From a virus: DNA of 64,000 nt. Numbering within the stretch: position 1 is the stretch's first letter; each line of letters starts with the position of its first letter. The stretch covers positions 1 through 64,000 of the IMG/VR virus record IMGVR_UViG_3300028025_003904, one strand, 5' to 3'. This document shows positions 3,571 through 28,395 of the stretch, piece after piece. Both the position numbers and the translations under genes were made by a program. Under the pieces are notes generated by a model. That model was not told the origin of the DNA and did not search any database. It was given only the letters and a program-made list of their open reading frames with translations.

Positions 3571-3729
3571 ATGAAAACATTTTTCACAAAAGCATTAGTT
3601 TATTCAATTGGAACAATTGTAGTTTCAGCTGCGGTATTTAGTATTACTATGGCAGGGTTAAACCTTGCTGGTCAAACTGATATTACCAAACAAGTTATTG
3701 AAGAAATGGATGATGTTTTAGGAATCTAA
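3571..3729 (+). CDS. Small single-pass membrane protein (52 aa), only plus-strand gene
   Basis: A 53-codon frame from ATG 3571 to TAA 3729 encodes MKTFFTKALVYSIGTIVVSA and continues with a short acidic tail ending VLGI. Residues about 8-32 form one hydrophobic helix. A strong Shine-Dalgarno (GGAGG, 3563-3567 region) sits about 6 nt before the ATG, and a TATATTTATA element lies 17 nt upstream. The stop overlaps the stop of the convergent gene 3726-5321 by four bases. No family is recognised; a small regulator of lysis or envelope function is conceivable. The combination of ribosome site, promoter-like element and exact fit makes a real gene likely. Confidence 0.6.
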   Translation: MKTFFTKALVYSIGTIVVSAAVFSITMAGLNLAGQTDITKQVIEEMDDVLGI

Positions 3730-5321
3730 AGCATTAATCTAGAACCTATTAAGAAATTACTTAATATCGGTGCTCCTGAAGCAGTTGATGTGTTTATCTT
3801 ATAGTTGAAACTCAAACCAAACTTACGGCTAATCTTATAATCTACCGATGTTCCTAATAGGAATCCAACATTAGTAGAATAAGTAACTTCACCCTTTGAT
3901 GTGTTGAAACTTGCACCAGGTGTCATTACGAATACTTGTGGTGATAAAGTAAGTTTCTTTGATTTCTGATATGGTTTAGTCCAAAACACAACTGCTGAAC
4001 TACTCATACTATAATCACTTCCAATAAATAGATTTACCAAACCTAAATTGTAACCATATACACCATACTTTGGATTTGGTATAATATGTGTAAAACCAGC
4101 CAATGCCATATAGTTACCAGATAGGTATGCAGTAGTTACTGAATAGGAGTTCATAGAAACCATCTTACCACCCTTCATATTCATTTTAGTTATACCACCA
4201 CTCAAAGCAAATTGCTTTAATGTAGACCATACCATAGAGTTTAGAGAATAAGTTACATTACCTGCTGCCGATGAACGTGATATACCATTAGTAAGTATGG
4301 CTGCGAACTCACCCGGCGAACCTTCTGCTACCGTCAAATCAGATGCAATTAGTAATGGGTTTATGTTTTGTGCCTTTTGTTTTTTATCTTCTTTCTTTTC
4401 TTCCTTCTTCTCTTCTTTTTTCTCCTCTTTCTTTTCTTCCTTTTTAGATTCTTCTTTCTTTTCTTCTTTTTTAGATTCGGATTTAGTTTCTTCTTTCTTT
4501 TCCTCACTCTTACTTTCAGATTTGGATTCTGATTTGGATTCGGATTTCGTTTCAGATTTTGTTTCAGCCTTCGCTTCTGTTTTACTTTCAGAAGATGAAG
4601 ATGAACTATTGGATGATGAACTGCTACTACCTCCACTTGATGAAGATGATGAACCACCACTTGCAGGTGCCGATGAAGCAGGTGCAGATGAAGATGGAGC
4701 CGGAGCGGATGTTGTTGGTGGTGGAGGTGGAACTGCCGCCGATGCCGCACCACTAGCCGCACCACTAGCCGCACCACTAGCTGCCGATGAAGCTGCTCCA
4801 CTTGCTGCTCCACTTGCCGCTGAACTAGCTGCTCCACTCGCTGCATTTGATGCCGCTGAACTAGCCGCTGATGATGCCGCTGAACTAGCTGCACTACTTG
4901 CTGCAGAACTTGCCGCAGAACTTGCAGCAGATGCGGCTGCTGAACTTGCGGCTTGTGCTGCCGCAGCAGATGCTGCTTGGGTGGCGGCTTGTTGAGCCGC
5001 TTGTTGAACTGCTTGGTTTACTGTTTGTTGAACTGTTTGTTGAACTACTTGATTTGTTTCACACCCTTTTGATGAATATGCAGTATAAACTATTTGTAAC
5101 CACATTTGCATTGCACCACTTTGAACTTCTTCTGGTGAAAATACTTTCATTTGGTCATAGAATGATACAAATGCTTGTCCATTGACGTAAGTAGTAGTGG
5201 CGATTTTTACTTCACCACTACACTTATCTACAAATGTTTGTGTAAATGTTGTTTGTCCGTTAGCTTTGGAAGCTAGACAAAATATGAATAATACACTTAA
5301 TAGTATTCTTAAATTTTTCAA
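3726..5321 (-). CDS. Exported low-complexity protein with C-terminal outer-membrane-like domain (531 aa)
   Basis: The frame begins at TTG 5321 (a stop codon is directly upstream in frame) and starts with a good signal peptide, MKNLRILLSVLFIFCLASKANGQ. About 90 residues of globular sequence follow, then a very long low-complexity region: Gln/Ala-rich, (AASS)n repeats, a poly-Pro run, Ser-rich stretches, then alternating Lys/Glu/Ser repeats (KKEE, SKSE), up to roughly residue 310. The last 210 residues have alternating polar/aromatic strands and end NFLIGSRLML, as in small outer-membrane barrels. A TATATTTATA-like element 23 nt upstream supports the TTG start. It closes an operon of exported proteins. 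It may be a surface fibre or spacer-anchored barrel; no homologue is recognised. Confidence 0.7.
   Translation of the reverse strand: MKNLRILLSVLFIFCLASKANGQTTFTQTFVDKCSGEVKIATTTYVNGQAFVSFYDQMKVFSPEEVQSGAMQMWLQIVYTAYSSKGCETNQVVQQTVQQTVNQAVQQAAQQAATQAASAAAAQAASSAAASAASSAASSAASSAASSAASSAASSAASNAASGAASSAASGAASGAASSAASGAASGAASGAASAAVPPPPPTTSAPAPSSSAPASSAPASGGSSSSSSGGSSSSSSNSSSSSSESKTEAKAETKSETKSESKSESKSESKSEEKKEETKSESKKEEKKEESKKEEKKEEKKEEKKEEKKEDKKQKAQNINPLLIASDLTVAEGSPGEFAAILTNGISRSSAAGNVTYSLNSMVWSTLKQFALSGGITKMNMKGGKMVSMNSYSVTTAYLSGNYMALAGFTHIIPNPKYGVYGYNLGLVNLFIGSDYSMSSSAVVFWTKPYQKSKKLTLSPQVFVMTPGASFNTSKGEVTYSTNVGFLLGTSVDYKISRKFGLSFNYKINTSTASGAPILSNFLIGSRLML
4380..5030 (-). repeat. Low-complexity coding repeats (AASS, Ser, KKEE)
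   Basis: Within the exported protein gene, short tandem codons encode Ala-Ala-Ser-Ser repeats (about 4740-4970), Ser runs (about 4560-4640) and Lys-Lys-Glu-Glu/Lys-Ser-Glu repeats (about 4380-4560). The DNA periodicity creates long spurious open frames in other frames on both strands. Such tracts are prone to slippage and length variation. Confidence 0.8.
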
Positions 5322-5355: not shown

Positions 5356-6552
5356 TTAATTTCCTTTTGTTGGGAATTTTGTCCAATCATTTGTCCAAGT
5401 TGGTTTATCCATTGTAGGTACTACTACATCTATTTCTTTATTAGTTTTTGAAAGTGCAAGAGTTTTCAATTGGTCATTTGTTAGGATTGTAGTTGCTTTA
5501 CTAATAAAGTTTAGTGTTGGGTTAAATGTTCCTACTGAATTGTTTTCAAATACTGAAACACCATCTTTCACAAATTGTGCAGTTTCGTTACTTTCCAAAC
5601 TCAATCCACCTTTCATCCATCCCCAAATTACACTATTCTTCATTGTGAATTGTGTCCCTCTTCTAAATCTTAAACCTAAATTATGGTTTGATAATGCAGT
5701 AGATGTATTCGGCCCAATCAAAATCATATTATAAAGTTTTGGATGTGTAAATGGAGTTGCAGATGAACCTGTTCCATCGTTATCACATTCTACACCATTT
5801 CCCGCATCACCATTATCTACAAATTGTGGGTCTCTCTTTGCTATACCATTTGTGATTGTTCCAGTATATCCAAAATCAAAATCAAAATCATCATCTGCGG
5901 TTGCGAATGCATATAAGTTTTTAGGTGATACAGTTCCACCAAAGAACTCAAATGCATCATCGTTAGCGTAGATAGTTTGAACATTCTCAATGATTGTTCC
6001 ACTACCAACTCCACCTAATGTTAGTGCGTTGATTTCGGAGTTTGGCATTGCTGCAACACCAGCATATTCAATACGAACATATTTTAAGATACCACTATTA
6101 TCCAAATCGTTAGTACCACCATATGGTCTTCCGATGCCACCTTCGATAGTTGGTTCTGATGTTCTATTGGTTTTTGCTCTACCCAATATTACAATACCAC
6201 CCCAATCACCTGGTGTTCTTTCTCCTGCTGGTCTTCCTGATGTAAACACAATTGGTTTTGATGCAGTTCCCTCTGCTACAATTTGCGCTCCTCTTTCGAT
6301 ACACAATGCACCCTTTTCACTTATATCTGATTTGATTATTGTACCCGGCTGAATGATAAGTTTTGCACCATCGGTTACATATACATACCCTTTTAGTACC
6401 CACTCTTTATCTGATGTAAGAGTTGTAGTTGATGTGATGTTTCCACTCAAAGTTGTTGATGTTGGTACATTGATTGGTGTAACTTCTCCACCTAAATCCT
6501 TTGAACATGCAAACATTGTTAAACTTGCGAATAATACTAATAATTTTTTCAT
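5356..6552 (-). CDS. Beta-helix surface lipoprotein paired with a TonB-dependent receptor (398 aa)
   Basis: The N-terminus MKKLLVLFASLTMFACSKD is a lipoprotein signal with the lipobox ending at Cys16. The mature protein is rich in short beta repeats with Gly/Asn turns (LKGYVYVTDGAKLIIQPGTIIKSD..., ILKYVRIEYAGV, FEFFGGTVSPKN, LRFRRGTQFTMKNSVIWG), as in right-handed parallel beta-helix proteins. Similar lipoproteins are encoded next to TonB-dependent receptors in flavobacterial genomes (from memory). Its start overlaps the receptor's stop by four bases (ATGA), indicating translational coupling. It is probably anchored in the outer membrane and may form a lid or ligand-binding partner of the receptor. 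Such a pair in a phage is unexpected. Confidence 0.8.
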   Translation of the reverse strand: MKKLLVLFASLTMFACSKDLGGEVTPINVPTSTTLSGNITSTTTLTSDKEWVLKGYVYVTDGAKLIIQPGTIIKSDISEKGALCIERGAQIVAEGTASKPIVFTSGRPAGERTPGDWGGIVILGRAKTNRTSEPTIEGGIGRPYGGTNDLDNSGILKYVRIEYAGVAAMPNSEINALTLGGVGSGTIIENVQTIYANDDAFEFFGGTVSPKNLYAFATADDDFDFDFGYTGTITNGIAKRDPQFVDNGDAGNGVECDNDGTGSSATPFTHPKLYNMILIGPNTSTALSNHNLGLRFRRGTQFTMKNSVIWGWMKGGLSLESNETAQFVKDGVSVFENNSVGTFNPTLNFISKATTILTNDQLKTLALSKTNKEIDVVVPTMDKPTWTNDWTKFPTKGN

Positions 6553-9032
6553 AGGTTGTAATTTAGTGTTAGTGAAATTGTTGTTTCGTTGTTTGTTTTA
6601 ATTAAAGTACGATTTGGTTTTTGGTAATATTCAAATGGTTGTCTGAATATATCCGATACTGCTAATTTAATTTCTCCGTTTTTAATTTTACGAAGAATAA
6701 CAATATCAACCACATCACGAGAGTTCTCAAATATATCAGGGTATCCTTGAAATCCTACTGCTGATATTCTATCTCCAACTCTATTGTATGATAAGTTGAA
6801 TGTATTGTTGTTTTTATGTAAGTTCAATCCACCATTTAGTACATAGTTTGATTGTCCTTGCAATTGTCTTTTAACTCCGTTTATATCAACTTCCGAATTG
6901 ATGAATGATGTGTTTGAATATAAATCCAACCAATCATTTAATTTTTTACGAAGTTCAATCTCAACTCCATATACCAATGCTTCGTTTGGATTTTTATATG
7001 TTAGTAATAGATTTGATGGAACTGAACCATCTGCTACAACTTGCTCAATTGGATTAAAGAACTTCTTACCAAAGAAACCAATTGATATGTTCTCACCTGA
7101 TTTAGGATACAATTCAAACTTTATATCTGAATTGAATATATCCGTTTTTTGTAAGTTTGGGTTTCCTAATAGTTGTGCGTTTCTAACAAAATCATAATAT
7201 GCAAAATTAGCTACCTCTCTAAATTCCGGTCTTGCTAATGTTTTACTTACCGATAATCTAATCTTCGTTTTTTCCGATGTTGAATATGTTGCGTTTAACG
7301 ATGGAAGTAAATCCAAATACTCTCTATCTACTGATATTCTCTGTCCACTAAAATCGGATGTTTGAACTTTGAATAAATTGTATTCCGTTCTAAAACCTGT
7401 GTTTAATTTTAGGTTATCAATTTCTTTTTCATACATTACATATCCGTTTGCCAAATCAAAATCGGCAGTATATCTATCGGTGTTGTTTGTAATCTCATTT
7501 AACAAATCAGTTGATTCGTATCTGAATATTCTTGCTTTGAAGTTTCTCAATTTCTTTAAATAACCCACTCCTAAACGAATATCTCCTATGGATTTGTTTA
7601 ATCCCCCATTGAATGAGTTTTCATCCATTACACTCCAAAAACGATAGGTATCTCTCCATGCTATTGAGTAGGGAGTTGATGTGTATAAAGATGATATATA
7701 AGGTGTTACTCTATAATCGGGTTGGTCTCTCAACATAAGATTGTACCCTACATTAAAATCTAATGTTTTAAACTTACCTTCAAATTGTGTGTTGAATACT
7801 AACTTTTGAATTGAGTTAGATGATTTACTATCTACATACTGAACATTATCATAGTTTTCACCAACTCTACTTAAAAATGATTTTTCGTTTTGGTAGTTAG
7901 CAAGTGTTTTCCAACTATAACGATTCTCTCCCAAATACACTATGTTTAATAATCCGTTTAATGATTGTACATTTGAGTAATTTAGGTCTTTATAGTTGTA
8001 TGCTAATTCGGTAGATGATTGGTAATCTATTCTTTCAGTTGTATTAGCAGAGTATGTGTTTCTTGCAGTTGAACTGAATAAGATGTTCCATTTGTTTTTC
8101 ACAACACCAAATGATAAGTTACCATTTAAGTTTGGAATAGATGTTGATGTTTCGGTTTGTGGTGAACCTATTAGTTTAGTGTATGCTCTCCTATCACCTA
8201 ATCCCGCAATTCTATATCCGTTTGTTGATGGAAATGTTGTTGGGAATTGTATAGGGTCTACCAACCTAAAATCCTGTCCTGTTGATAATGAACCCCAGCT
8301 TCCTCCCAATGATATATTAAAGAAATCACCACTAACTTCTTTTGTTGTTATTTGTACCAATCCTCCTGCGAAATCACCAGGTAGGTTTGCTGATGCTCCT
8401 TTGTTGATGATGATATTATCTATTAGTGATGTTGGGATAATATCAAATGAGAATGCTCTTCTATCGGGTTCGGTTGATGGTAAGATTGATTTGTTTAGTA
8501 GAGCCGAGTTGTATCTATCAGCTAAACCTCTAACTAAAACAAACTTATCGTTTTGGATTGTTACACCACTAACTCTTTTAAGTGCATCTCCAACAGTTCT
8601 ATCTGGTGTTTTCTTTATTGATTCGATTGATAAACCATCTGCTACAATGTAAGATGCTTTAAGTGTATTGATAAGTGCAGTTGCAGTTTCTTTCTTTGCT
8701 ACTTGCTTTACTACAACTTCTTGTAATACTTTCGTATCTTCTTCTAACTGAATATCAAGGTTAGTTGTAGTATCAATTGTAATATCTTTAGTGTATTCTT
8801 TGTATCCAACGAAAGATGCTTTGATTGAATACTTTCCTTTTGCTATATTGGTAAATTGATATTTGGATTCAATATCAGATGTTGTTCCTACTTTCTTATT
8901 TGTTGTATTATTGGTAAGCCAAATTGTTACACCTATAAGTTCTTCTTTGTTTGTTTTTACTTTACCTGAAAGGTTTTGAGAGAAAATTTGATGTGAAAGT
9001 AACAGAATTGATAATAAAAATAGTTTCCTCAT
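6549..9032 (-). CDS. TonB-dependent outer-membrane receptor (827 aa)
   Basis: A signal peptide (MRKLFLLSILLLSHQIFSQ) is followed by a carboxypeptidase-D-regulatory-like beta-sandwich (about residues 20-95: LSGKVKTNKEELIGVTIWL...YKEYTKDITI), a plug domain (about 105-230: KKTPDRTVGDALKRVSGVTI, FVLVRGLADRYN, NKGASANLPGDFAGGLVQI) and a long beta-barrel to the C-terminus (TTISLTLNYNL, ending in an aromatic/hydrophobic strand). Length and domain order are complete and typical of Bacteroidota TonB-dependent transporters. It overlaps the beta-helix lipoprotein by 4 nt. A perfect inverted repeat (9085-9101) lies 53 nt upstream of the start. Possible roles are nutrient or metal uptake in infected cells, replacement of the host phage receptor to block superinfection, or transport of a specific ligand. 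The function is inference; the family is clear. Confidence 0.93.
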   Translation of the reverse strand: MRKLFLLSILLLSHQIFSQNLSGKVKTNKEELIGVTIWLTNNTTNKKVGTTSDIESKYQFTNIAKGKYSIKASFVGYKEYTKDITIDTTTNLDIQLEEDTKVLQEVVVKQVAKKETATALINTLKASYIVADGLSIESIKKTPDRTVGDALKRVSGVTIQNDKFVLVRGLADRYNSALLNKSILPSTEPDRRAFSFDIIPTSLIDNIIINKGASANLPGDFAGGLVQITTKEVSGDFFNISLGGSWGSLSTGQDFRLVDPIQFPTTFPSTNGYRIAGLGDRRAYTKLIGSPQTETSTSIPNLNGNLSFGVVKNKWNILFSSTARNTYSANTTERIDYQSSTELAYNYKDLNYSNVQSLNGLLNIVYLGENRYSWKTLANYQNEKSFLSRVGENYDNVQYVDSKSSNSIQKLVFNTQFEGKFKTLDFNVGYNLMLRDQPDYRVTPYISSLYTSTPYSIAWRDTYRFWSVMDENSFNGGLNKSIGDIRLGVGYLKKLRNFKARIFRYESTDLLNEITNNTDRYTADFDLANGYVMYEKEIDNLKLNTGFRTEYNLFKVQTSDFSGQRISVDREYLDLLPSLNATYSTSEKTKIRLSVSKTLARPEFREVANFAYYDFVRNAQLLGNPNLQKTDIFNSDIKFELYPKSGENISIGFFGKKFFNPIEQVVADGSVPSNLLLTYKNPNEALVYGVEIELRKKLNDWLDLYSNTSFINSEVDINGVKRQLQGQSNYVLNGGLNLHKNNNTFNLSYNRVGDRISAVGFQGYPDIFENSRDVVDIVILRKIKNGEIKLAVSDIFRQPFEYYQKPNRTLIKTNNETTISLTLNYNL

Positions 9033-9115: not shown

Positions 9116-9916
9116 TTATGCACCCAATGCTTTACTGAATCCATTAGGACAAGTTCTAGTACATACCAAAGATGCAACAACTGGTGCTACTGCAGCTCCG
9201 ATTGCGATACCAACTCCAGCAGGCGTTGCCCATAATGCAGCCGAATCTAAACTATAATAGATACAATTTGAACATACATTTCTTAATAATTGTGGGTCAA
9301 CATTCCCACCAACACCAGGTATTGCTAAAAATCCATCTGCCACTATTACACCCATTGCCGTTGATACTGCCATTTTAGCTGCCATATCTGCAACGTAAAG
9401 AACCGGCGTAGCCATCAATGATAATGTAGTTGAAGTTGCTGCTCCAGCAGGTTGTGCCGGTGTAAATGCTAAAACACAACCCGTAGATATTGCCGCAGTT
9501 ATTCCAATTGTACAAGCATTTGCATCTGCCCAATTGTATGCAGCTACTGCGCCTGCTGCCACTATCTCAACACCTGCTACAATTTGTTGTTCGGCTTGTT
9601 TAGATAATTGAACAAATTCGTTTTGAGTTACATCGAACCCCACCTTTGCAAATTCTTCAGTAGTACTTGCAATAGTACACGCTGCACTTTCTACTCTGTG
9701 TGCACTATCGGTAGCAAATGCTACTGAATAGTTGTATGCATCTTCTACACTACCTATTGCAGTGTTTATACCACTTCCAATTGGTTGAATTACGTTATCA
9801 TTAATTGCATTTCCCGCATCTACAAATGCGTTACCAATTGGTTGAATAACATTATCATTAATTGCGTTTCCGGCATCTACAAATGCCTGTTCAATTGCTT
9901 TTCCAGCGCTTCCCAT
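9116..9916 (-). CDS. Hypothetical hydrophobic Cys-containing protein with duplicated 19-residue repeat (266 aa)
   Basis: The N-terminus carries two consecutive copies of AFVDAGNAINDNVIQPIG plus one linker residue (residues about 11-48). The middle and C-terminus have Ala/Gly/Val-rich hydrophobic stretches (VAGVEIVAAGAVAAYNW, TIGITAAISTGCVLAF, AGVGIAIGAAVAPVVASLVC) that could be membrane-inserting, and a cluster of Cys residues (NVCSNCIYY, VCTRTCPNG). No classical signal peptide is seen. It could be a membrane-active or toxin-like effector or a structural protein. No family is recognised. It sits between the lipase/GNAT pair and the receptor operon. Confidence 0.6.
   Translation of the reverse strand: MGSAGKAIEQAFVDAGNAINDNVIQPIGNAFVDAGNAINDNVIQPIGSGINTAIGSVEDAYNYSVAFATDSAHRVESAACTIASTTEEFAKVGFDVTQNEFVQLSKQAEQQIVAGVEIVAAGAVAAYNWADANACTIGITAAISTGCVLAFTPAQPAGAATSTTLSLMATPVLYVADMAAKMAVSTAMGVIVADGFLAIPGVGGNVDPQLLRNVCSNCIYYSLDSAALWATPAGVGIAIGAAVAPVVASLVCTRTCPNGFSKALGA
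9777..9890 (-). repeat. Two tandem 57-bp coding repeats
   Basis: Bases 9777-9833 and 9834-9890 are diverged copies of one 57-bp unit encoding 19 residues. The nucleotide differences are mostly synonymous, which suggests selection on the repeated peptide. Confidence 0.8.
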
Positions 9917-10251: not shown

Positions 10252-10989
10252 TCAATTCACCCAGTTTTCTAATGCTTTCATATACCCATCACCCATATGG
10301 TCTTTGATAGTTTTACCTGAAAATAATGATTTTAGGTACAACCAAAGTGATTTTAGTGATTTATCATTTTGTAATCTATTACCAGCCGTATCTAATCTTA
10401 CTTGGTAGTTTACATGATGAAATCCTATATATGGTGTATGTGTTACTAAATCGTTGTTATGTACTATTCGTAAAGTATCTATACCACTTTTATCGTAGTT
10501 TTCTTTGAATACTTTATTACCAACTCTCGGGCTACCAATCGTTGTTACTTTAAGATTGTAATGAGGATAGTGTTTCTTTATTGAGTATGCATATAATGTT
10601 GCTACTGCTCCACCTAAACTATGTCCACTAACTACAATATCAGTAGTTTCACCTTGTAGGTTTTCTAATGCAGTATCAATTGCATCATATGTATCACCCA
10701 CTACCGATTCCCAACAATATTTAAATCCAATATGAACCTTTTCATTCTCTTCTATAAATGGTACTTTATCAATTGAAGCATCGTTTTGAAAATCCTTCTT
10801 TGATTCACTACCTCTCCAAACTACATATATAGTTTTATCCTTTGTTGCTACAAATCCTTGTGTATCTGATTTTTTATTCTCAATCCACTTCACTAACTCT
10901 AATCCATACTCATCCCAATTTATTTGGTCTTTGTTTGAATAAGCTAACACTGCTAATTTTGAATTATATAATGCTTCCTTTCTTGTCAT
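10252..10989 (-). CDS. Class 3 lipase (alpha/beta hydrolase)
   Basis: A 245-residue protein with the class 3 lipase signature: an oxyanion-side strand IYVVWRGSESKKDFQNDAS (residues 54-72), nucleophile elbow GHSLGG with Ser124, an SPRVGN motif (153-158), Asp180 in RIVHNNDLV, and His191/192 in FHHVNYQV. A full catalytic triad is therefore visible. There is no signal peptide, so it would act in the cytoplasm or leave the cell by lysis or another route. A phage lipase could attack membrane lipids during lysis or remodel envelope lipids. It sits next to CsgG-like and holin-like genes. Confidence 0.88.
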   Translation of the reverse strand: MTRKEALYNSKLAVLAYSNKDQINWDEYGLELVKWIENKKSDTQGFVATKDKTIYVVWRGSESKKDFQNDASIDKVPFIEENEKVHIGFKYCWESVVGDTYDAIDTALENLQGETTDIVVSGHSLGGAVATLYAYSIKKHYPHYNLKVTTIGSPRVGNKVFKENYDKSGIDTLRIVHNNDLVTHTPYIGFHHVNYQVRLDTAGNRLQNDKSLKSLWLYLKSLFSGKTIKDHMGDGYMKALENWVN

Positions 10990-10995
10990 AATTTA

Positions 10996-11715
10996 TTATT
11001 TTGTAAATTTACCCTTCTTAATCATACGAAGAAGAATGCGAGCACAAGCAATATCCAATGCTTTCTTTGTAGATGTACCAATAGTAGATTGATTGAATTT
11101 AACATCTGATAAGTTATCATCGTTTAATAATGACAATTCTCTTGTGGTAGTTGCTTCACCTAAACCCGATGCTCCAAATATCTCACCAGTTTCTGCATCT
11201 GTGAATCTAACTTGCAAACCTAAACGAGTAACCATTTTGTTTTTAACACCATCTTTCATATTGATTGTTTCATCCTCACTAATAGAGAAATCATATACTT
11301 CAATAGATACAAAATAGTGTGCTAATCTAATCTTACCTCTACCATCTAACTTATCTTGGGAAATGCCCGCTTGAGAAGCTTGAAATTGTTTAACCATTCT
11401 ATTTTTGATTTCGGTTTTGTCCTCTGTAAAAGTAAAACGGTTGAGATTTTCAAGGTATTCCATAGATATATTCGCCACACCAAGACCCACCTTCTTTTCT
11501 TTAAGTTCCGGATATTGTTCCAAAATTTCATCACTTATTCCACATTTTAAGATTTGAATTGGAATTGTTGGACCATCGTAGTCCATCAACTCACTTATGT
11601 CCACTTTTGTTTCAAAACTCGCTTTGTAGTTTTCTGTTGTAGTCTTTCCAACTACCTGTCCCTTTGCAATAAAGGTCAATAATCCCATTGCTAAAATTAG
11701 AAATACATTCTTCAT
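10996..11715 (-). CDS. CsgG-like outer-membrane secretion protein
   Basis: A 239-residue protein with signal peptide MKNVFLILAMGLLTFIAKGQ. The body follows the CsgG pattern: a strand-helix segment KVGLGVANISMEYLENLNRFTFTED, a central AGISQDKLDGRGKIRLAHYFVSIEVYDF, and the C-terminal TGEIFGASGLGEATTT...STIGTSTKKALDIACARILLRMI. E. coli CsgG (277 aa) is a lipoprotein that forms the curli secretion pore; here no lipobox Cys is present. CsgG/CsgF-like genes have been reported in some pelagic myoviruses. The gene follows a terminator and a TATATTTATA-like element, so it probably starts a transcription unit including the lipase and GNAT genes. Confidence 0.8.
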   Translation of the reverse strand: MKNVFLILAMGLLTFIAKGQVVGKTTTENYKASFETKVDISELMDYDGPTIPIQILKCGISDEILEQYPELKEKKVGLGVANISMEYLENLNRFTFTEDKTEIKNRMVKQFQASQAGISQDKLDGRGKIRLAHYFVSIEVYDFSISEDETINMKDGVKNKMVTRLGLQVRFTDAETGEIFGASGLGEATTTRELSLLNDDNLSDVKFNQSTIGTSTKKALDIACARILLRMIKKGKFTK

Positions 11716-11787: not shown

Positions 11788-12087
11788 TTATCCCAATTCC
11801 TCTTCTTCCTTCATTGGTTCTGGCTTAATACTATCCAAATGATTTAGTTTATCATTTTCGGCTTTCTTATTAACAAACTTGTCAACCGATGCTATACCAA
11901 ATGAACCCAATGTTATGGTTAAAAAACCATTAAAGATATATTCGTTGATAAGTAATTCCTTACCCATATATCCAGTTACTAAATCAACTGCGATTGCTAC
12001 TACCATTACACCGAATGATGCAAATCCGACAACTGATTTTTCGTTGATGTTATTATCATCATCAAACAAATCTTTAAAAAAACCCAT
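11788..12087 (-). CDS. Holin-like two-helix membrane protein (99 aa)
   Basis: An acidic N-terminus (MGFFKDLFDDDNNINEK) precedes two hydrophobic segments (about residues 18-40, VVGFASFGVMVVAIAVDLVTG, and 49-68, YIFNGFLTITLGSFGIASV), then a charged Lys/Glu-rich tail. Size, topology and position beside another small membrane protein fit a phage holin or pinholin, but no endolysin is identified in the window. The assignment is by topology only. Confidence 0.5.
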   Translation of the reverse strand: MGFFKDLFDDDNNINEKSVVGFASFGVMVVAIAVDLVTGYMGKELLINEYIFNGFLTITLGSFGIASVDKFVNKKAENDKLNHLDSIKPEPMKEEEELG

Positions 12088-12108: not shown

Positions 12109-12459
12109 TTAATCTATATTATGGTGTGCTTCATCACTTTCATTTGGTGCAGATGCTCCGCCTGTGTTTGATAAGGATACACCGTCTTCCTCGTCCATTT
12201 TTTGAACTAACATTTTATCTTTGTCTGTATCAGAGAACCAATAATCTATAATCTTACCATAAGAACCAATAAATGCTCCTAATAAAAGTAATAATAGTTC
12301 TTTCCACTCTTGTCCTACGATGGTATCTATGTGTATAGAAATAAGAATACCAAATGTAGTAAACATAAAAGTAATTAATACAATTAATGTAATTAACCAC
12401 CTTCTTTTCATCATCTGATTTAAGAGTTGCTTAAATCCGTCTGGTTGCTGATGTTCCAT
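12109..12459 (-). CDS. Holin-like membrane protein (116 aa)
   Basis: Two hydrophobic helices (about residues 20-42, WLITLIVLITFMFTTFGILI, and 53-70, LLLLLLGAFIGSYGKIIDYWF) are flanked by a short cytoplasmic N-terminus and a charged, disordered C-terminal tail. The 'GAFIGSYGKIIDYWF' stretch is the kind of end-of-helix motif seen in marine phage holin-like proteins. It is encoded just upstream of the other two-helix protein; the pair could act as holin and antiholin. No sequence family can be fixed by eye. Confidence 0.5.
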   Translation of the reverse strand: MEHQQPDGFKQLLNQMMKRRWLITLIVLITFMFTTFGILISIHIDTIVGQEWKELLLLLLGAFIGSYGKIIDYWFSDTDKDKMLVQKMDEEDGVSLSNTGGASAPNESDEAHHNID

Positions 12460-12465: not shown

Positions 12466-12789
12466 TTACCAAGCTGCTGGCTTTTCCTTAAACTCGTCTG
12501 CTTCTTTTTTAGGTTTAGGAGCCGGTGCTGGTTGTGCAGGTTTAGCTGAACCATTTCCTTCTCCACCTTTGTTGATGATAATAGTTTTACCACCAGCAGA
12601 TTGTTGTTGAGTTTGGTTATTTTGGATGTTGATAACCGGTGCTGCTGCCGGAGCTGCTGCTGGTTGCTCACCACCACCGAACATTTGTGAACCTAACCAA
12701 GCTCCGCCTGCGGTTACTATTGTTCCTACTGTGCCTATGATTGTTTTAACCAATCCTGACATTGTTCCATCGTTTGATTCTTCTGACAT
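12466..12789 (-). CDS. Ala/Pro/Gln-rich small protein with one hydrophobic segment (107 aa)
   Basis: After a short acidic start, residues about 11-37 form a Gly/Thr-rich hydrophobic segment (GLVKTIIGTVGTIVTAGGAWL), followed by an Ala-Pro linker, an Asn/Gln-rich strand (VINIQNNQTQQQ), and a Lys/Pro-rich C-terminus. It may insert in a membrane with a disordered tail. It lies directly upstream of the holin-like pair, so it could be part of the lysis cassette. No family is recognised. Confidence 0.55.
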   Translation of the reverse strand: MSEESNDGTMSGLVKTIIGTVGTIVTAGGAWLGSQMFGGGEQPAAAPAAAPVINIQNNQTQQQSAGGKTIIINKGGEGNGSAKPAQPAPAPKPKKEADEFKEKPAAW

Positions 12790-12813: not shown

Positions 12814-13185
12814 TTATAATTTATTAAAATCTGCTATTCCCAATAGGTTTCCTTCTAAATCGAACAAACCAATTCTATATGCTGAAGATGGTAAAGCGTT
12901 TGCGTAAATCTTTAATAGATTATTACCAGCTTTTATAGTTACCTCTTCTTTTGATACTGATTTGTTTGCTATGTTTAATATTTTTACTACATATGTTCCA
13001 GCAGTTTCAGCTTTTACATTCATAGCAACTTCATTTTTTACAAATGGAGTTTCTACTTTAATACCCATATTACCAACTATTTGTAATTTTTCAGTTACTT
13101 GTGTTGGAGTTGGTACTAATAATTCTTCATTTTGACAAGATACTAATAATCCAATTGCCAATATCGATGCTACTATTTTTTTCAT
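12814..13185 (-). CDS. Small lipoprotein with secretion-tail-like beta-sandwich (123 aa)
   Basis: Signal MKKIVASILAIGLLVSCQN has a lipobox ending at Cys17. The mature domain (AGTYVVKILNIANKSVSKEE..., GNNLLKIYANALPSSAYRIGLFDLEGN) follows the pattern of Bacteroidota C-terminal sorting-type beta-sandwiches (GtY.v.i.n..G..v), although here it is a stand-alone lipoprotein. Its start overlaps the stop of the next lipoprotein gene by 4 nt (ATGA). Probably an envelope-anchored partner of the large secreted proteins upstream in the same operon. Confidence 0.7.
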   Translation of the reverse strand: MKKIVASILAIGLLVSCQNEELLVPTPTQVTEKLQIVGNMGIKVETPFVKNEVAMNVKAETAGTYVVKILNIANKSVSKEEVTIKAGNNLLKIYANALPSSAYRIGLFDLEGNLLGIADFNKL

Positions 13186-13526
13186 TTTATTATTATTGTT
13201 GTTTTTCCTAATTCTTTTTTAGTAACATCTTCCAATAACAGATATAAATATCTACTTTGTAACGATTTCGTATAAATCTTTTTTACATTTTCTCCACTTT
13301 GTCCAATAAACTTTTCTCTACCGATTACTTGTCCACTTTCTTTATCTATTAAAGTTAGTGTATAAGTTCCTTTTTCTGGCAAATCAAAGTGTATAGATTC
13401 ACCATTTGTAACATTACTTTGACTTACACTAAATATATCATCAATTGATAATCCTTCTGGCATTACCAATTCAGGTCCACTACACCCAACCAATAGTATC
13501 AAAAATAAGTATAGTACCCGTTTCAT
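13182..13526 (-). CDS. Small lipoprotein, probable paralogue of its neighbour (114 aa)
   Basis: Signal MKRVLYLFLILLVGCSG has a lipobox ending at Cys15. The core (KGTYTLTLIDKESGQVIGREKF, SLQSRYLYLLLEDVTKK) has the same beta-sandwich pattern as the 12814-13185 lipoprotein, so the two are probably diverged duplicates. It overlaps both neighbours by 1-4 nt and belongs to the same translationally coupled operon. Confidence 0.7.
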   Translation of the reverse strand: MKRVLYLFLILLVGCSGPELVMPEGLSIDDIFSVSQSNVTNGESIHFDLPEKGTYTLTLIDKESGQVIGREKFIGQSGENVKKIYTKSLQSRYLYLLLEDVTKKELGKTTIIIK

Positions 13527-15460
13527 TAGTTTATATTTATTTTTAGTTGCTTACCATCTTTATTTATTGCATCGGTTGCTGAAATTGATGTTAATCCCAA
13601 TGTACCTTCAATACCAACTAATGGTAAAAAAGTTATTTTATATTCCGTATTATCGGTTAGTAATCCATTTCCACTATAAATCAAAGAACCAAAGTTTATG
13701 TAATTACCAGTATCATTTGAAAAGTTTGTAGGATTTCCATCGGTAGTATATTCCGTATTTTCGTATTTCAATATATCTTTATCATAGTTTAATTTTAACT
13801 GAATACCTTTTAGTGATTGTCCTAATGTATTTACTTTTACACTTACCACAACTTTACCACCAACATTTTCACTTACTACATATACAGATACTTCCATTGG
13901 TGTGGTTAAACTCATAGTACGATTTACACTTGCAGTAGCTTGTGTATTTTGTGCTGGTGTATGTGATAGGTTTACATCTCCTTTTAATGCCACCACTATG
14001 TGATACACATAATCATTTATAGCCGCATCAACTGCTAACGGATAGTTTGCTTTATATGGTGCATTTATTGTTGCCCAATTAGATTTGTTTACTCCATCAA
14101 ATGTAGTTTTATTTACCAATCTAAATAAGTTATCCTCACTCCACGTAGACACTATTTGTGTACTACCTATTACGTGTTGTAGTATTTTGTAGGAATCTTT
14201 TTCGTTGAATATATTATTACCATCCACATCACCATTTAAGAATTGTACACCATTTGTAAACGAATTACTTTCAGTCCCACTCAATCCTCTATTTGCTAAC
14301 TCTTGAAATGCTAAATATGCATCACCAATAGTTAATACATTACTATATAGATTGGATAAAGTAGCTGATGGTAATTTGGATAAGTACATAACCATATCAG
14401 TTTTACTTTTAACAAAATCACTTGTATTAACCACACTCCCATTTGCACCCAAAGTTAAACCACTAGTTGCACTAACTGCCGTTGCACCATTTGCTGTATA
14501 GTTTTTTACTGACCATTGTGATGGATTTATACCTCCACCAAAGTAAAAATTAACTTTTGAGGTTGGTACATCTATTGGGTTTATTACATTTGCCGAATAG
14601 AAATTTGTAAATGTTTGTGAATCTGGATTAGTCCAAGTTCCATATTCAATTATATATGGATTAGACCAATTGTTTGATAAATCGTTCCAAGTTGATTGTC
14701 CATTCCAATTTGTTACTGCATAATTCTCACTACCATTACTGCCATTTGGTTCACCAGGTGCCCAGTTGTTATATACACCTACGATATTTCCTGCAGTTTG
14801 TCCATTTGATGTTTTCATTACAATTCCCTTTTCAGGTCCTGCATCAATCACCCATCTACCATCTACAACTTCATCTGTTGCTGCAAACCATATATTTTGT
14901 TGTGGTACGTTAGAAAATATAAAAGCGTTTTCATCGGCAGATGTGATTGTTACCAAATATCCCGTCTGTCCTTTGAATGTTGTTAGTAACGATGCCGCTC
15001 TTGCTCCCGTATAAGTATCTCCCGTTGTTACTGGTCTATAAAAGTGTCCGTTTATTGGGTTGTAATAAAATCCTGTTGGGTTTAAAGTTGCTGATACGGA
15101 TATTTGAACATTACCGGCGGTTGCACCTGTATTTATTTTTAGAGATGCTAATGCGTTATTTATGTTTGCTTGCGTTCCCGTAAATACTAAACGAGCTTTA
15201 TTACCAGTTAAAGTAAAACCAGATGCAGGTGTTAAACCTGTTGTTGTGGTTAAATTGAATGTTGTACCTGTTGGTGGATTGATGAACCCTATTGATGCCA
15301 ATAATATATCGGTAGAAGTAAACCCATTCAAAACAAATCCACTACACGACTGCCCACTTACGTTTAATTCAAACTTTTTAGCGAGCGGTTGTGTAATGGA
15401 TTGTGCAATGGTTATACTACTACACAATAAAAACATTATTGCGGTTAGTATTACTCTCAT
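13526..15460 (-). CDS. Large secreted protein with C-type lectin, dockerin-like and cohesin-like regions (644 aa)
   Basis: Signal peptide MRVILTAIMFLLCSSITIAQ. Residues about 125-275 form a C-type lectin-like domain: an entry strand (YYNPINGHFYRPV), GYLVTITSADENAF, a NWAPGEPNGSNGSENYAVT stretch with the EPN sugar/Ca motif, and STWNDL. Residues about 405-435 (FLNGDVDGNNIFNEKDSYKILQHV) match the Ca-binding dockerin/EF-hand pattern. The C-terminal 120 residues (VSVKVNTLGQSLKGIQLKLNY... to the end) resemble a cohesin beta-sandwich. It is predicted to be exported and could bind surface glycans. The stop-start overlaps (TAATG) with both neighbours indicate coupling. Confidence 0.75.
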   Translation of the reverse strand: MRVILTAIMFLLCSSITIAQSITQPLAKKFELNVSGQSCSGFVLNGFTSTDILLASIGFINPPTGTTFNLTTTTGLTPASGFTLTGNKARLVFTGTQANINNALASLKINTGATAGNVQISVSATLNPTGFYYNPINGHFYRPVTTGDTYTGARAASLLTTFKGQTGYLVTITSADENAFIFSNVPQQNIWFAATDEVVDGRWVIDAGPEKGIVMKTSNGQTAGNIVGVYNNWAPGEPNGSNGSENYAVTNWNGQSTWNDLSNNWSNPYIIEYGTWTNPDSQTFTNFYSANVINPIDVPTSKVNFYFGGGINPSQWSVKNYTANGATAVSATSGLTLGANGSVVNTSDFVKSKTDMVMYLSKLPSATLSNLYSNVLTIGDAYLAFQELANRGLSGTESNSFTNGVQFLNGDVDGNNIFNEKDSYKILQHVIGSTQIVSTWSEDNLFRLVNKTTFDGVNKSNWATINAPYKANYPLAVDAAINDYVYHIVVALKGDVNLSHTPAQNTQATASVNRTMSLTTPMEVSVYVVSENVGGKVVVSVKVNTLGQSLKGIQLKLNYDKDILKYENTEYTTDGNPTNFSNDTGNYINFGSLIYSGNGLLTDNTEYKITFLPLVGIEGTLGLTSISATDAINKDGKQLKININ

Positions 15461-17088
15461 TATTCTACATTTAATCCAATCTTATTTCCTTTTCCATCAA
15501 CTGCATCTGCTAATTCAGTATAGAATAAACCAGCAGTATTTGTTAAAGGAACATTAGATGTGAAAGTTAATTTGTATGGTGTACCAGTTTTAATTCTAGC
15601 AGTTTTAATTTGGTCCATTGAACCAAATGTTAATCTACCATCTTTATTTGTTGAAAAGTTAGTTATAGATGAACCAGCATCAAATACAATACCATCTAAT
15701 GTTAATTTAGAGTCATCGTATTTCAAAATAACTTCTAGTCCGGCTAACCCTTCTTGTGATAAGTTACCACTTAATATTACTTTATTATTTTCAATTTTAG
15801 ATGATAAACTTAATGTTGCAGTTCCAGCTAATTGGTTTGCATAGATACCTTTATTACCAATAGTTCTATTCATTGTACCATTAGTACCTATTACACTATT
15901 TGCAGATATTGGTTGACCTGGGTTAGATGAATGTGAGAAATCCAAATCACCACCAAATGCGTAAGAGAATACTTCTGTTTGATTTGCCGATGTTAAGGTA
16001 ACTACGTTATTAGATTGAGCCGGTGTAAGAGTAGGATATGCCGATTGTTTTACGGATATAAAATTCATTGCCGTTGAGTTTTGCTTTGTTATTCTTGCTT
16101 TTGAAGATACATCTTGCCCTAAAATGTGTGCAAACAAATAGTAAGCATCGTTTGTATTAAAATCACCATCATTTAGTGTTACATTACCAATTGCCTTTTC
16201 TAATGCGGGGTATCCAAATATAGATGTTGTACCATTTAATCCCACATCCGTTACTGCTAAAAATGCTCTATATGCATCGGTTACAGTTACTACGTTGTTC
16301 AAATAAGATGCTCCAAAAGTTGGTACAATATATACACCAAACTTATCACCAATGTTGAATTGTTCAAAATCAGCTTGTCCACCAGAGTTCAATGCCTTCT
16401 TTGCTAATGGTGGAATATTCCAGTTTGTAGTTCCATCTCCGTTTAGGGGTTGGATTTGAACTGATAAAGATGTAATGTCAAAATTAGATGGATAACCAAC
16501 CTTCACTCTAAATGCCGAAACGTATTTTACATCTCCAGCTGCAAATGATAATTGAAGAACTTGAGAACCAATTGGTGCAATCGGTGCATCATCTGTTCCA
16601 GTTGCAGTTGCCAAATCTAATTTGTGTATGCCTTGGTAGTTTGTATTTTCTAATAGTATAAATTTTTCAGTTGCCCACAAACCATCAATTACCGCATCTG
16701 CTCTTTGAGTTGTAAATTGTTTTGCTATCCAATCGTTGTTTTGTGTATAGTTCCAAGGTGTTGAAGCATATTGTTTATCTAACTCACCAACTCCAATTAC
16801 TGGGTTTTGAGTAAACATATAGTTTGGCCAAGTTGCTTCAAAGTTTTGAGCAGTTTGTCCTTGTGAGAATACGGTAGGACCTAATTTTTGTAGGTGTTTG
16901 TTTGAGTATTGATAACGCATCCAAAGGAATCTAGGGTTTGTAGTTCCTTTGATAATGTTATATCTTATCGTTAGTGTATCACCAACTCTGTAAGGTTTTG
17001 AGTTTACTACCTCTTGGTTAATGATTAATTGTCCGTAAGACACAAATGATGTTAAAAACAACACCAATCCGAATAATAAGTTTTTCAT
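15460..17088 (-). CDS. Large secreted protein with dockerin-like and cohesin-like regions (542 aa)
   Basis: Signal peptide MKNLLFGLVLFLTSFVSYGQ. The N-terminal 250 residues are beta-rich without a recognised domain. A dockerin-like Ca-binding segment (VTLNDGDFNTNDAYYLFAHIL, about 308-330) and a cohesin-like C-terminal beta-sandwich (VILSGNLSQEGLAGLEVILKYD...) match the layout of the following gene (13526-15460), so the two are paralogues in their C-terminal halves while only the other carries the lectin domain. A dockerin/cohesin pair in one operon suggests that the two proteins could bind each other or self-assemble into a surface structure. Confidence 0.72.
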   Translation of the reverse strand: MKNLLFGLVLFLTSFVSYGQLIINQEVVNSKPYRVGDTLTIRYNIIKGTTNPRFLWMRYQYSNKHLQKLGPTVFSQGQTAQNFEATWPNYMFTQNPVIGVGELDKQYASTPWNYTQNNDWIAKQFTTQRADAVIDGLWATEKFILLENTNYQGIHKLDLATATGTDDAPIAPIGSQVLQLSFAAGDVKYVSAFRVKVGYPSNFDITSLSVQIQPLNGDGTTNWNIPPLAKKALNSGGQADFEQFNIGDKFGVYIVPTFGASYLNNVVTVTDAYRAFLAVTDVGLNGTTSIFGYPALEKAIGNVTLNDGDFNTNDAYYLFAHILGQDVSSKARITKQNSTAMNFISVKQSAYPTLTPAQSNNVVTLTSANQTEVFSYAFGGDLDFSHSSNPGQPISANSVIGTNGTMNRTIGNKGIYANQLAGTATLSLSSKIENNKVILSGNLSQEGLAGLEVILKYDDSKLTLDGIVFDAGSSITNFSTNKDGRLTFGSMDQIKTARIKTGTPYKLTFTSNVPLTNTAGLFYTELADAVDGKGNKIGLNVE

Positions 17089-17570
17089 TATAATAGTTTT
17101 TTGATTAAGGTTTCACAAGTCTTTTTAATCGCGTTTCGTGCAGATTGTTGGTTGAATTGTCCACCTTCATTAACTAATAATGTACTAGTAGATACTTCGG
17201 ATGAACTTTCTTCTGCTAAAAATTGTTTTAATTTCTTGCCGTTTTTGTAAAGCGTACCCTTTATTCGTATAACTACTTCAGTTTCGTCTGAATGAAAAAC
17301 TGATATATTTTTTTTGGTTGTTAGAATATCGAAGAAAACGATTTCTGTTTTAAGAACGATTGTGTTCTCATCTATGGTTTCCATCAAAGGATGGTTCTCT
17401 TGTACTAATTCCTGTAAGATATTTTTTACACCAAAAGCCAGGTTTTTGTTGCCGGTTAAAGGTCCTATCTGAACACTATTAACAACTTTTTCAACAAAAA
17501 CTGGCTCTGTATTTTGCGCCATACCCATAATAGGTAATAGCACCAACAATATTGATGTAATTAGTCTCAT
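17088..17570 (-). CDS. Short CsgG-related exported protein (160 aa)
   Basis: The start at 17570 is preferred over 17582: it is preceded by GGGAGA at SD distance and begins a clean signal peptide (MRLITSILLVLLPIMGMAQ), while the longer start overlaps the TATATTTATG element. The C-terminus (SSEVSTSTLLVNEGGQFNQQSARNAIKKTCETLIKKL) parallels the CsgG-like protein at 10996 (GEATTT...KFNQSTIGTSTKKALDIACARIL), so it is a shorter relative, roughly the periplasmic half of CsgG without the barrel-forming segments. It heads the operon of dockerin/cohesin proteins and lipoproteins, which makes it a candidate chaperone or pore partner for their export. Confidence 0.6.
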   Translation of the reverse strand: MRLITSILLVLLPIMGMAQNTEPVFVEKVVNSVQIGPLTGNKNLAFGVKNILQELVQENHPLMETIDENTIVLKTEIVFFDILTTKKNISVFHSDETEVVIRIKGTLYKNGKKLKQFLAEESSSEVSTSTLLVNEGGQFNQQSARNAIKKTCETLIKKLL

Positions 17571-17579
17571 AATTTCTCC

Positions 17580-17589
17580 CATAAATAAA
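17580..17589 (-). promoter_or_regulatory. TATATTTATG element (possible late promoter)
   Basis: Sense-strand TATATTTATGGG directly upstream of the CsgG-related gene, probably the promoter of the 17.6-12.4 kb exported-protein operon. No TTG lies at -33. Confidence 0.4.
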
Positions 17590-26528: not shown

Positions 26529-26556
26529 ACCTATAAATATAAAGTTATGATAATTG

Positions 26557-26646
26557 TAGAGAGTGAGGGGCTCGAACCCTCGCGCCGGTTTTACCCAACC
26601 TAACAGTTTAGCAAACTGCCCCCTTCACCAACTTGGGTAACTCTCT
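26557..26646 (-). tRNA. tRNA-Ser(GCT)
   Basis: Class II cloverleaf: acceptor AGAGAGT/ACTCTCT, anticodon stem GCAGT/ACTGT with loop TTGCTAA (anticodon GCT), a long variable arm and T arm GAGGG-TTCGAGC-CCCTC. Confidence 0.9.
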
Positions 26647-26649
26647 AAA

Positions 26650-27090
26650 TTATTTTTTTTTCTTTCTCCAAGTTGGAGTTTGTGAATGACAATTTGGACA
26701 AAGAATTTTTAAATTACTCAAATCATTATTTTTATTATTACCATCTATATGGTCAATTTCCATAGGCAATCTTTTACCAAGCCATTTTTCAATTCCACAT
26801 TCTTCACATTTATGTCCCCTATCTTCTTTTATCCACACTTTTATACTGGATATATGTGCTTTTGTATAATCTCTTTTTTGTTTAAAAGTATTTCTACTTT
26901 TTTCAATTTTACTTGGATTTGAGTTATATGAAAAATCGCATGTCTTCCACCATTCAGATTTCAACATTCCCTCACTAATTTTTCTTTTTACTGCATCCGT
27001 TCTAACTCTTGAATTGGCACACGATACTGAACAATACTTACCGCTACCATAAGAACCATCGTGCTCTTTATTACATTTTATACATTTCAT
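26650..27090 (-). CDS. HNH homing-type endonuclease
   Basis: A 146-residue protein with an N-terminal zinc ribbon (C3IKC6 ... YC20SVSC24), and a C-terminal HNH domain: CEECG (Zn), PMEIDHIDGNNKNNDLSNLKILCPNCHSQT, with the H-N-H residues in DHIDGN and the CPNCH pair. Free-standing HNH enzymes of this form are common mobile genes in phages. It sits inside the tRNA array between tRNA-Ser(GCT) and tRNA-Arg, a typical intergenic insertion site. A TATATTTATA element lies 24 nt upstream. Confidence 0.9.
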   Translation of the reverse strand: MKCIKCNKEHDGSYGSGKYCSVSCANSRVRTDAVKRKISEGMLKSEWWKTCDFSYNSNPSKIEKSRNTFKQKRDYTKAHISSIKVWIKEDRGHKCEECGIEKWLGKRLPMEIDHIDGNNKNNDLSNLKILCPNCHSQTPTWRKKKK

Positions 27091-27113
27091 AATCGAACTA
27101 TTGATTTATTTAA

Positions 27114-27123
27114 TATAAATATA
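27114..27123 (-). promoter_or_regulatory. TATATTTATA element (possible late promoter)
   Basis: Perfect TATATTTATA in sense orientation 24 nt before the HNH gene ATG; no TTG at the -33 position. Confidence 0.4.
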
Positions 27124-27149
27124 CGATATTTCGATTTTCAACATTTTAG

Positions 27150-27222
27150 TGACTCCATCAGGACTCGAACCTGAAACCTACGCATTAGAAGTGCGTTGCT
27201 CTATCCGTTGAGCTATGGAGCC
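27150..27222 (-). tRNA. tRNA-Arg(TCT)
   Basis: Acceptor GGCTCCA/TGGAGTC, D arm AGCTCAACGGATAGAGC, anticodon loop CTTCTAA (TCT), T arm CAGG-TTCGAGT-CCTG, discriminator A. Confidence 0.93.
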
Positions 27223-27227
27223 AGATG

Positions 27228-27313
27228 AGGAGGGTGTGAGATTCGAACTCACGGTCCTGTTACAGACTCCGGTTTTCAAGACCGGTGCAATAGACCAACT
27301 CTGCCAACCCTCC
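27228..27313 (-). tRNA. tRNA-Ser(TGA)
   Basis: Class II cloverleaf with acceptor GGAGGGT/ACCCTCC, anticodon stem CCGGT/ACCGG with loop CTTGAAA (TGA), long variable arm, and T arm GTGAG-TTCGAAT-CTCAC. Confidence 0.92.
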
Positions 27314-27318
27314 TTTTA

Positions 27319-27660
27319 CTAAATTTGTTCTGACTTTAAAGTATCCAAAACAATTGGTGGATATTTCTTACGGATTTCCAATGAATCTTCTAATGCCCAC
27401 TTTTGTTTAAGTTTGGCACGTTTCTCCATATTTTTAAGTTGTTCTTTTTTCTTTATAATATCTTTCGATAATTTTTCTATACGAACATACTTACTTGCAT
27501 AATCCTCATCGGTTGCATCAACCCATTGGATTTTTCTTTGTAATTCTTTGATTTCAGTTTTTATAGTTTCAACCAAAGGTGCTTCATCGCTAAACTTTGG
27601 GTCAATTGAACCACCCAATGTGTTGAATAAAAGCATAATAGACATTCCTAATTCTTTCAT
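27319..27660 (-). CDS. Hypothetical coiled-coil protein (113 aa)
   Basis: After a short hydrophobic start (MKELGMSIMLLFNTLGG) residues about 30-95 are highly charged with heptad-like Leu/Ile/Val spacing (TIKTEIKELQRKIQ, IEKLSKDIIKKKEQLKNMEKR), indicating a coiled coil. It is embedded between tRNA-Ser(TGA) and tRNA-Gln. The start could also be Met6 or Met9. No family is recognised; a small virion or membrane-associated protein is possible. Confidence 0.55.
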   Translation of the reverse strand: MKELGMSIMLLFNTLGGSIDPKFSDEAPLVETIKTEIKELQRKIQWVDATDEDYASKYVRIEKLSKDIIKKKEQLKNMEKRAKLKQKWALEDSLEIRKKYPPIVLDTLKSEQI

Positions 27661-27677
27661 ACTATTTTTATTTAATG

Positions 27678-27748: not shown

Positions 27749-27753
27749 ATTTG

Positions 27754-27827: not shown

Positions 27828-27834
27828 AAATTAA

Positions 27835-28327: not shown

Positions 28328-28332
28328 AAATA

Positions 28333-28392: not shown

Positions 28393-28395
28393 TTG

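Follow-up and report, generated by a model that had tools for sequence, protein, structure and literature searches.

The genes P542 and P644 lie on the minus strand of the window, the 64,000-nucleotide stretch analysed here (positions 1-64000 of the 120,104-base viral record IMGVR_UViG_3300028025_003904), and may encode a socket (P542) and a plug (P644) with which the phage displays protein on the cell surface. Judged from the sequences, this reading is given an even chance of being correct. P542 (15460..17088) is a complete open reading frame (ORF) of 542 residues for a predicted exported scaffold protein, and P644 (13526..15460), likewise complete with 644 residues, would be an exported lectin-head protein that combines a lectin with dockerin-like and cohesin-like regions. 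The main evidence for surface display is the architecture of these proteins and their neighbours across 173 related loci.

The window encodes a family B DNA polymerase, a sliding clamp and a clamp loader, named from their sequences and phage context, together with a GroES-like co-chaperonin, tRNA genes and a transfer-messenger RNA (tmRNA), and a contractile tail sheath gene is located at about 68 kb of the viral record. These genes identify the source, by gene content, as a large T4-like, contractile-tailed phage. The P542/P644 pair belongs to a phage cassette of 10-15 genes, for which the fetched loci show the conserved order E164, P542, P644, Lp114, Lp123, M107, M116, M99, G239, e531; at many loci, a 297-residue relative of e531 is placed between P644 and Lp114. 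The single-base overlaps reported in the preliminary description are present as TAATG at E164/P542, P542/P644 and P644/Lp114 (CATTA on the plus strand at 13524, 15458 and 17086), so that each ORF of the pair overlaps its neighbours.

Domains of P542 and P644

P542 consists of an N-terminal beta-sandwich (residues 21-163), a middle beta domain (190-256), dockerin-like helices with a degenerate calcium loop (261-325) and a cohesin domain (422-541; 15466..15825, minus strand), the latter assigned from Pfam matches of homologues and from Foldseek. In P644, also on the minus strand, a C-type lectin domain (residues 165-270; 14651..14968) with the motifs EPN (237-239) and WND (258-260) is followed by the intact dockerin calcium loop DVDGNNIFNEKD (411-422; 14195..14230) and a cohesin-like domain (510-644; 13529..13933). 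The two proteins had been described as paralogues, which applies to their C-terminal halves: these are 27% identical over 293 residues by BLASTP (E 2e-16), and profile-profile comparison of the two families gave a probability of 99.8% over 271 columns. Neither method detected a relationship between the N-terminal halves.

The lectin domain of P644 is the sole domain of the window pair that exceeds a curated cut-off (Lectin_C, PF00059; 24.1 bits compared with the Pfam cut-off of 22.6), in agreement with the lectin proposed earlier for one of the proteins. Its motifs are conserved in the homologous domains, EPN in 137 and WND in 132 of 144. In C-type lectins, the EPN motif indicates binding of mannose-type glycans. 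The head is exchanged between loci, with Lectin_C, PA14, LCCL or GEVED domains in this position.

For the cohesin (PF00963), the window P542 scores below the cut-off (15.8 bits compared with 24.1, E 0.016). Among homologues drawn from IMG/VR, the profile matches 11 of 38 for P542 (best E 6e-6) and 12 of 35 for P644 (best E 4e-6), and cohesins above the Pfam cut-off occur in L191 and L084 (L-numbers denote the sequences compared). Sequence searches of the PDB with P542 returned nothing meaningful; the AlphaFold model of P542 (predicted local distance difference test, pLDDT, 85) matches many solved cohesins in Foldseek, among them 2jh2 and 6kgd, with template modelling (TM) scores to the target of up to 0.70. 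A cohesin domain is thus present in both families. The cohesin-like ends had been predicted from the window alone, and an empty profile search had been named beforehand as the result that would speak against them; both the profiles and the model returned cohesins.

The dockerin assignment differs between the two proteins. Dockerin type I (PF00404) matches two of 35 P644 homologues (best E 0.0011), and its matches in L090 and L117 fall below the cut-off. The calcium-loop pattern D-x-[DN]-x-[DNS] is intact in P644 and degenerate in P542. Across the relatives, an intact loop is found in 73 of 74 proteins of the lectin+dockerin+cohesin type, 40 of 41 of the lectin+dockerin type, all 18 double-lectin proteins and all nine proteins with other heads; P542-like proteins have it in nine of 104 cases, and shuffled regions in five of 582. 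In P644-type proteins the intact loop lies in the second dockerin repeat and the first repeat is without one, leaving a single loop in place of the two F-hands of PF00404; by the same two-loop comparison, P542 has no intact calcium loop. The proteins therefore share the fold region and not the calcium site, as opposed to the common dockerin-like site described before, and P542, to judge by its sequence, has lost the loop. Since P542 is without an intact loop, docking would be one-way, from the P644 dockerin to a cohesin, most simply that of P542. The proposed mutual docking of the two proteins was rejected for this reason.

Both proteins carry the sequence pattern of exported proteins, as expected from their earlier description as large secreted proteins. 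In three families (A1, A3 and A4), which include those of P542 and P644, the hydrophobic stretch is followed by an invariant glutamine (Q20), and 180 of 189 cohesin-family members contain the pattern K/R-hydrophobic-[small]Q.

Proposed anchoring of the cohesin across related loci

Domain profiles for the lectin (LEC), the dockerin (DOC), the cohesin (COH) and the C-terminal sorting domain (CTD) of the type IX secretion system (T9SS) were built and run on 173 distinct loci with G239 (10996..11715, minus strand), the most conserved cassette gene. The window represents layout type A, in which a DOC+COH and a LEC+DOC+COH protein are accompanied by the separate lipoproteins Lp114 and Lp123. Type B combines DOC+COH+CTD with a separate LEC+DOC protein, type C, found in the Flavobacterium phage vB_FspM_immuto (Immutovirus, hereafter immuto), distributes the parts over LEC+DOC, DOC and COH+CTD, and type D comprises COH+DOC+COH+CTD with LEC+DOC or DOC. 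Fused COH+CTD proteins occur at 77 loci, none of which encodes Lp114 or Lp123, whereas 77 of the 86 loci with an unfused cohesin encode a CTD lipoprotein, Lp114 or Lp123. When the set was thinned to 59 loci, a separate lipoprotein is found at 0 of 35 fused and 22 of 24 unfused loci. The two arrangements, a sorting domain fused to the cohesin protein and a separate lipoprotein, are mutually exclusive. A dockerin protein without a cohesin, mostly a lectin, is encoded at 65 loci, and 62 of these encode COH+CTD in trans; of the remaining three, two are contigs starting at G239. Because the loci are not independent samples, and because the profiles were iterated on the same set, these counts describe a pattern and are not a formal test.

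The lipoproteins themselves resemble the sorting domain. Lp123 (12814..13185, minus strand) has a T9SS-CTD-like domain and a family-wide export signal resembling C-x-K-(D/E), and is proposed as the surface anchor; its paralogue Lp114 (13182..13526, minus strand) is a distant relative of the same sorting domain. With hhalign, Lp114 and Lp123 match each other at 99.3% and the fused CTDs at 80-83%, and the controls (cohesin, dockerin and M107) remain below 1%. P542 and P644 contain no T9SS type A sorting domain (PF18962/TIGR04183). In relatives, this domain exceeds the Pfam or NCBIfam cut-off (L084, L182, L165, L208, L187), and the lipoproteins of L177, L187, L191 and L205 carry it on their own, that of L187 above the NCBIfam cut-off. 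In Capnocytophaga, the lipoprotein-export signal has been defined experimentally as C-X-K-(D/E)2-X; Flavobacterium has acidic variants of it (PMC5080379). The exact core of the Capnocytophaga signal, C-X-K-(D/E)2 after the lipobox cysteine, is present in 22 of 60 Lp123 homologues and one of 47 other lipobox ORFs. If the relaxed forms C-x-K-(D/E) and C-x-K-x-(D/E) are admitted, the counts are 42 of 60 and two of 47, respectively.

Structural comparison leads to similar proteins. In a search of viral structures (BFVD), the first match of the P542 model is a 636-residue phage protein named for its sorting domain, followed by entries of 363 and 243 residues, which by these lengths, equal to those of immuto gp14 and gp15, and by their accession series are probably those two proteins.

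According to the model derived from these observations, P542 and P644 would both be exported by Sec during infection and cleaved before the conserved glutamine. P644 would then present a C-type lectin head of the mannose type (EPN/WND) on a dockerin-like module in which one calcium loop is intact, and the C-terminal cohesin of the P542 scaffold would receive this dockerin. In the window phage, Lp123 and Lp114 would hold the scaffold at the outer membrane or surface; in related phages, the fusion of the sorting domain to the cohesin protein suggests placement by the host T9SS. G239, E164 and the beta-barrel candidate e531 might aid export of the complex or its anchoring in the outer membrane. 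As a result, the infected cell would be coated with a glycan-binding head, which in the case of P644 would bind mannose-type glycans. The predicted docking and surface display of a sugar-binding head, as first suggested, are supported by the pairing in trans and by the mutual exclusion of fused and separate anchors.

Several points weigh against this model. The window Lp123 scores below the cut-off for the sorting domain (19.8 bits compared with 27, PF18962/TIGR04183), and its residues after the cysteine, QNEEL, include no lysine and are nearer to the acidic variant of the export signal. On the G239 tree, the fused or unfused state switches only four to five times, so that a phylogeny-aware sign test on independent pairs cannot reach significance (4/4 concordant, p 0.125), and the exchange of whole blocks could produce the same concordance. 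P644 has its own cohesin, which its dockerin may bind instead of that of P542, and self-polymerisation is possible. The window phage is uncultured, and its host and the presence of a T9SS are deduced from relatives. Finally, the ligands of the head could be components of the phage or the host and not neighbouring cells.

Possible role during infection and alternative explanations

The cassette is predominantly viral. Matches to G239 were found in at least 495 viral contigs and matches to P542 in 232, whereas in 84,980 bacterial and archaeal genomes no relative of P542 was detected by a pattern-based scan, which finds only fairly close relatives, and two of G239 were found, both on contigs of metagenome-assembled genomes with phage-like ORF content. 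Among deposited phages, G239 matches four Immutovirus records of Flavobacterium sp. LMO8 only, P644 retrieves only the immuto lectin, and P542 has no match. The carriers of the cassette appear to be phages of Bacteroidota, and the host of the window phage is assigned from these relatives. The retention of the cassette in hundreds of phage contigs and its near absence from cellular genomes make it improbable that it is an accessory for nutrition or adhesion, acquired from the host and lacking a function of its own in the phage cycle, even though its domains are typical of Bacteroidota surface proteins and a TonB-dependent receptor and a lipase adjoin it in some phages. The viral nature of the genes and their place in a larger cassette escaped the preliminary description; since the genes are viral, their meaning becomes the modification of the infected cell. 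Immune evasion, also suggested before, is unsupported, and no animal host is implied.

The likeliest purpose, proposed tentatively and with slightly less than even confidence, would be to tether the infected or lysing cell, and hence the progeny, to neighbouring cells or to polysaccharide or matrix. This purpose is the least certain part of the display model, but it is favoured over receptor masking, help in lysis and virion decoration.

If the cassette served receptor masking (superinfection exclusion), host glycans or the receptor would be covered by the lectin on display, and further phages would not adsorb. A virulent-type phage with a predicted surface-displayed glycan-binding protein and variable heads fits this role, as does the position of the cassette next to replication genes in the window, and the T9SS cargo of a cryoconite phage has been suggested to act in superinfection or competition (PMC7468147). 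However, in many relatives the cassette lies close to endolysin and holin-candidate genes, which points to late expression, at a stage where excluding other phages is of less use; masking is considered unlikely. Virion decorations of the lectin and Ig-like kind are known, and the proteins could likewise arrive at the surface or in the periplasm and become attached to particles when the cell lyses, forming a lectin coat that sticks to glycans. This could be examined on immuto phages, which can be purified, but Sec signal peptides with the invariant Q20 and lipoprotein anchors are a poor fit to virion assembly in the cytoplasm and the genes lie outside the structural cluster. Decoration is regarded as less probable than masking.

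The strongest rival explanation is a role in lysis, because part of the cassette is linked to lysis by gene adjacency. M99 (11788..12087, minus strand) is a small protein with one or two predicted transmembrane segments and a holin candidate. An endolysin-like gene (PG_binding_1 and GH19; PHROG endolysin, E 4e-68) was seen at 61 loci, lying one gene from the cassette at 41 of these and directly downstream of M99 at 19. G239, for its part, encodes an exported protein whose predicted fold resembles that of the CsgG superfamily: the top Foldseek matches of its model (pLDDT 75) are CsgG chains (E 8e-7, TM score only 0.4-0.5), followed by PelC, FlgT and LptE. No sequence match to CsgG (PF03783) was obtained with Pfam, a PDB profile search or hhalign against one E. 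coli CsgG, and the identification of G239 as CsgG by sequence was rejected in favour of a resemblance at the level of the fold. At most, G239 may work like a CsgG-superfamily protein, with pore formation being putative.

From these data, a module for lysis or outer-membrane disruption can be envisaged in which M99 is the holin of the nearby lysozyme endolysin, G239, e531 and the lipoproteins act in a spanin- or pore-like manner at the end of infection, and the lectin and cohesin proteins merely crosslink or weaken the envelope. Phage CsgGF has been proposed to act in lysis timing (PMC9004378). Such a module would leave the conserved EPN/WND lectin, the exchanged heads, the intact dockerin loop and the sorting domains unexplained. 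Moreover, M99 has no match to a holin family, the endolysin of the window phage is encoded 100 kb away on the linear record, and no endolysin was seen at 112 of the 173 loci, many of which are incomplete. A cassette serving mainly lysis is regarded as unlikely, to about the same degree as masking. A lysis-coupled form of tethering is no more probable: in this case a widespread, phage-only and self-contained envelope machine, with a CsgG-like pore, an outer-membrane barrel and membrane partners, would export and mount the cohesin-dockerin scaffold with its exchangeable heads and glue the dying cell and the virions to the next hosts.

Neighbouring genes and known systems

The coupled run begins with E164 (17088..17582, minus strand), an exported conserved partner to which no fold could be assigned and for which the CsgG tests (Pfam, PDB profile search, hhalign against E. 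coli CsgG) gave no usable match; a match to Cohesin SA-2 (E 0.02) was rejected, as this is an unrelated eukaryotic protein sharing the name. The cassette core further includes M107 (12466..12789), a small protein with a hydrophobic N-terminus and an N/Q/P-rich tail, and the membrane protein M116 (12109..12459), both on the minus strand. Long homologues of M116, at loci such as L061 and L067, continue after a single transmembrane helix with EF-hand-like DxDGDG repeats and a cluster of Cys and His residues; the window protein ends before these elements. The layout of e531 (3726..5321, minus strand) was read from its sequence as a signal peptide, a long low-complexity linker rich in K/E and A/S, and a C-terminal outer-membrane beta-barrel candidate.

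A class 3 lipase (10252..10989, minus strand) is an optional member found at 37 of 189 G239 loci. Between G239 and e531, a complete TonB-dependent receptor (6549..9032, minus strand; Pfam Plug, OMP_b-brl_3, CarbopepD_reg_2) is inserted, followed by a 398-residue lipoprotein (5356-6552). The receptor is also encoded in some related phages (L063, L067, L031) and possibly serves a receptor swap or nutrient uptake. The gene h266 (9116-9916, minus strand), co-inherited with the cassette in some phages, encodes a hydrophobic Ala/Gly-rich protein with two copies of the internal repeat VDAGNAINDNVIQPIG.

Elsewhere on the minus strand, 26556-32930 and 35155-35565 contain 23 tRNA genes for nearly all amino acids and the tmRNA, which has an unusual 26-residue tag; this region is interrupted by a 738-residue lipoprotein (29578-31794) with FN3-like and leucine-rich-repeat matches. 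Two similar ORFs are located at 34399-36171 (minus strand), one of which (35635-36171) encodes a 2OG-Fe(II) oxygenase family protein, and 52474-54009 (minus strand) encodes a protein matching the tryptophan-halogenase family (E 1e-110) among phage genes. In L086, a gene among those for the tail (841-2934; record position about 84.8-86.9 kb) encodes a protein that combines two glycosyltransferase domains, one of family 1 and one of family 9, and perhaps modifies host surface sugars or the virion.

No report of phage cohesin-dockerin pairs or of such a cassette was found in the open-access literature, the search being confined to it and not extending to subscription papers. Known parts thus appear in a new combination in the cassette; T9SS cargo and CsgG had each been described from phages on their own. 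If the display model is correct, large Bacteroidota phages, represented by hundreds of uncultured viral contigs, re-dress infected cells with a docked lectin, which would mean a viral use of cohesin-dockerin assembly and of host surface-sorting signals and would add new dockerin/cohesin pairs together with heads that can be swapped.

Among known systems, the cohesin-dockerin display of clostridial cellulosomes (solved complexes 6kgd, 4dh2 and 2vn6) has in common with the cassette the cohesin fold, the division into scaffold and docked parts, a head protein whose dockerin bears a calcium loop, and a cohesin protein that is anchored separately. Cellulosomes dock glycoside hydrolases, whereas the heads predicted to dock here are of the lectin, PA14 or LCCL type; the dockerin retains a single intact loop in place of two, and the genes are carried by a phage whose host is Gram-negative. 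As no glycoside hydrolase was found on the dockerin proteins examined, and scaffolds have one or two cohesins, a cellulosome proper was rejected: there are no enzymes.

Phage-borne T9SS cargo has been reported for the cryoconite phage 'Cryophage' (PMC7468147), whose genes with type A sorting domains, including one for a PA14 protein, are thought to use the host T9SS. The accessible text of that report describes neither a cohesin/dockerin pair nor a conserved cassette, and in the window the relative of the sorting domain sits on lipoproteins. Pelagimyophages and the phage Melnitz are also T4-like and encode a CsgG-fold gene in an operon for envelope proteins; this curli-type CsgG/CsgF operon lies between the replication and structural modules in pelagimyophages, and aggregation ('sibling capture') or lysis has been proposed as its function (PMC7029224, PMC9004378). 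In contrast, G239 resembles CsgG by fold only and not by sequence, no CsgF was seen in the cassette, and the described operon is without cohesin, lectin and T9SS-type parts. If correct, the display model would offer an explanation, open to experiment, for the operons of envelope proteins that T4-like phages of several phyla carry and that have so far gone unexplained.

The nearest relative among deposited phages is immuto, in which genes 13-18 encode, in the same order as in the window, a lectin-dockerin protein, a dockerin protein, a cohesin-sorting-domain protein, an M107-like protein, a G239 homologue 53% identical to that of the window, and a barrel-like protein. In contrast to the window, the parts are split over three proteins and the sorting domain is fused to the cohesin. 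These genes are annotated only as lectin, cohesin or hypothetical, and immuto phages together with their host Flavobacterium sp. LMO8 represent a ready experimental system.

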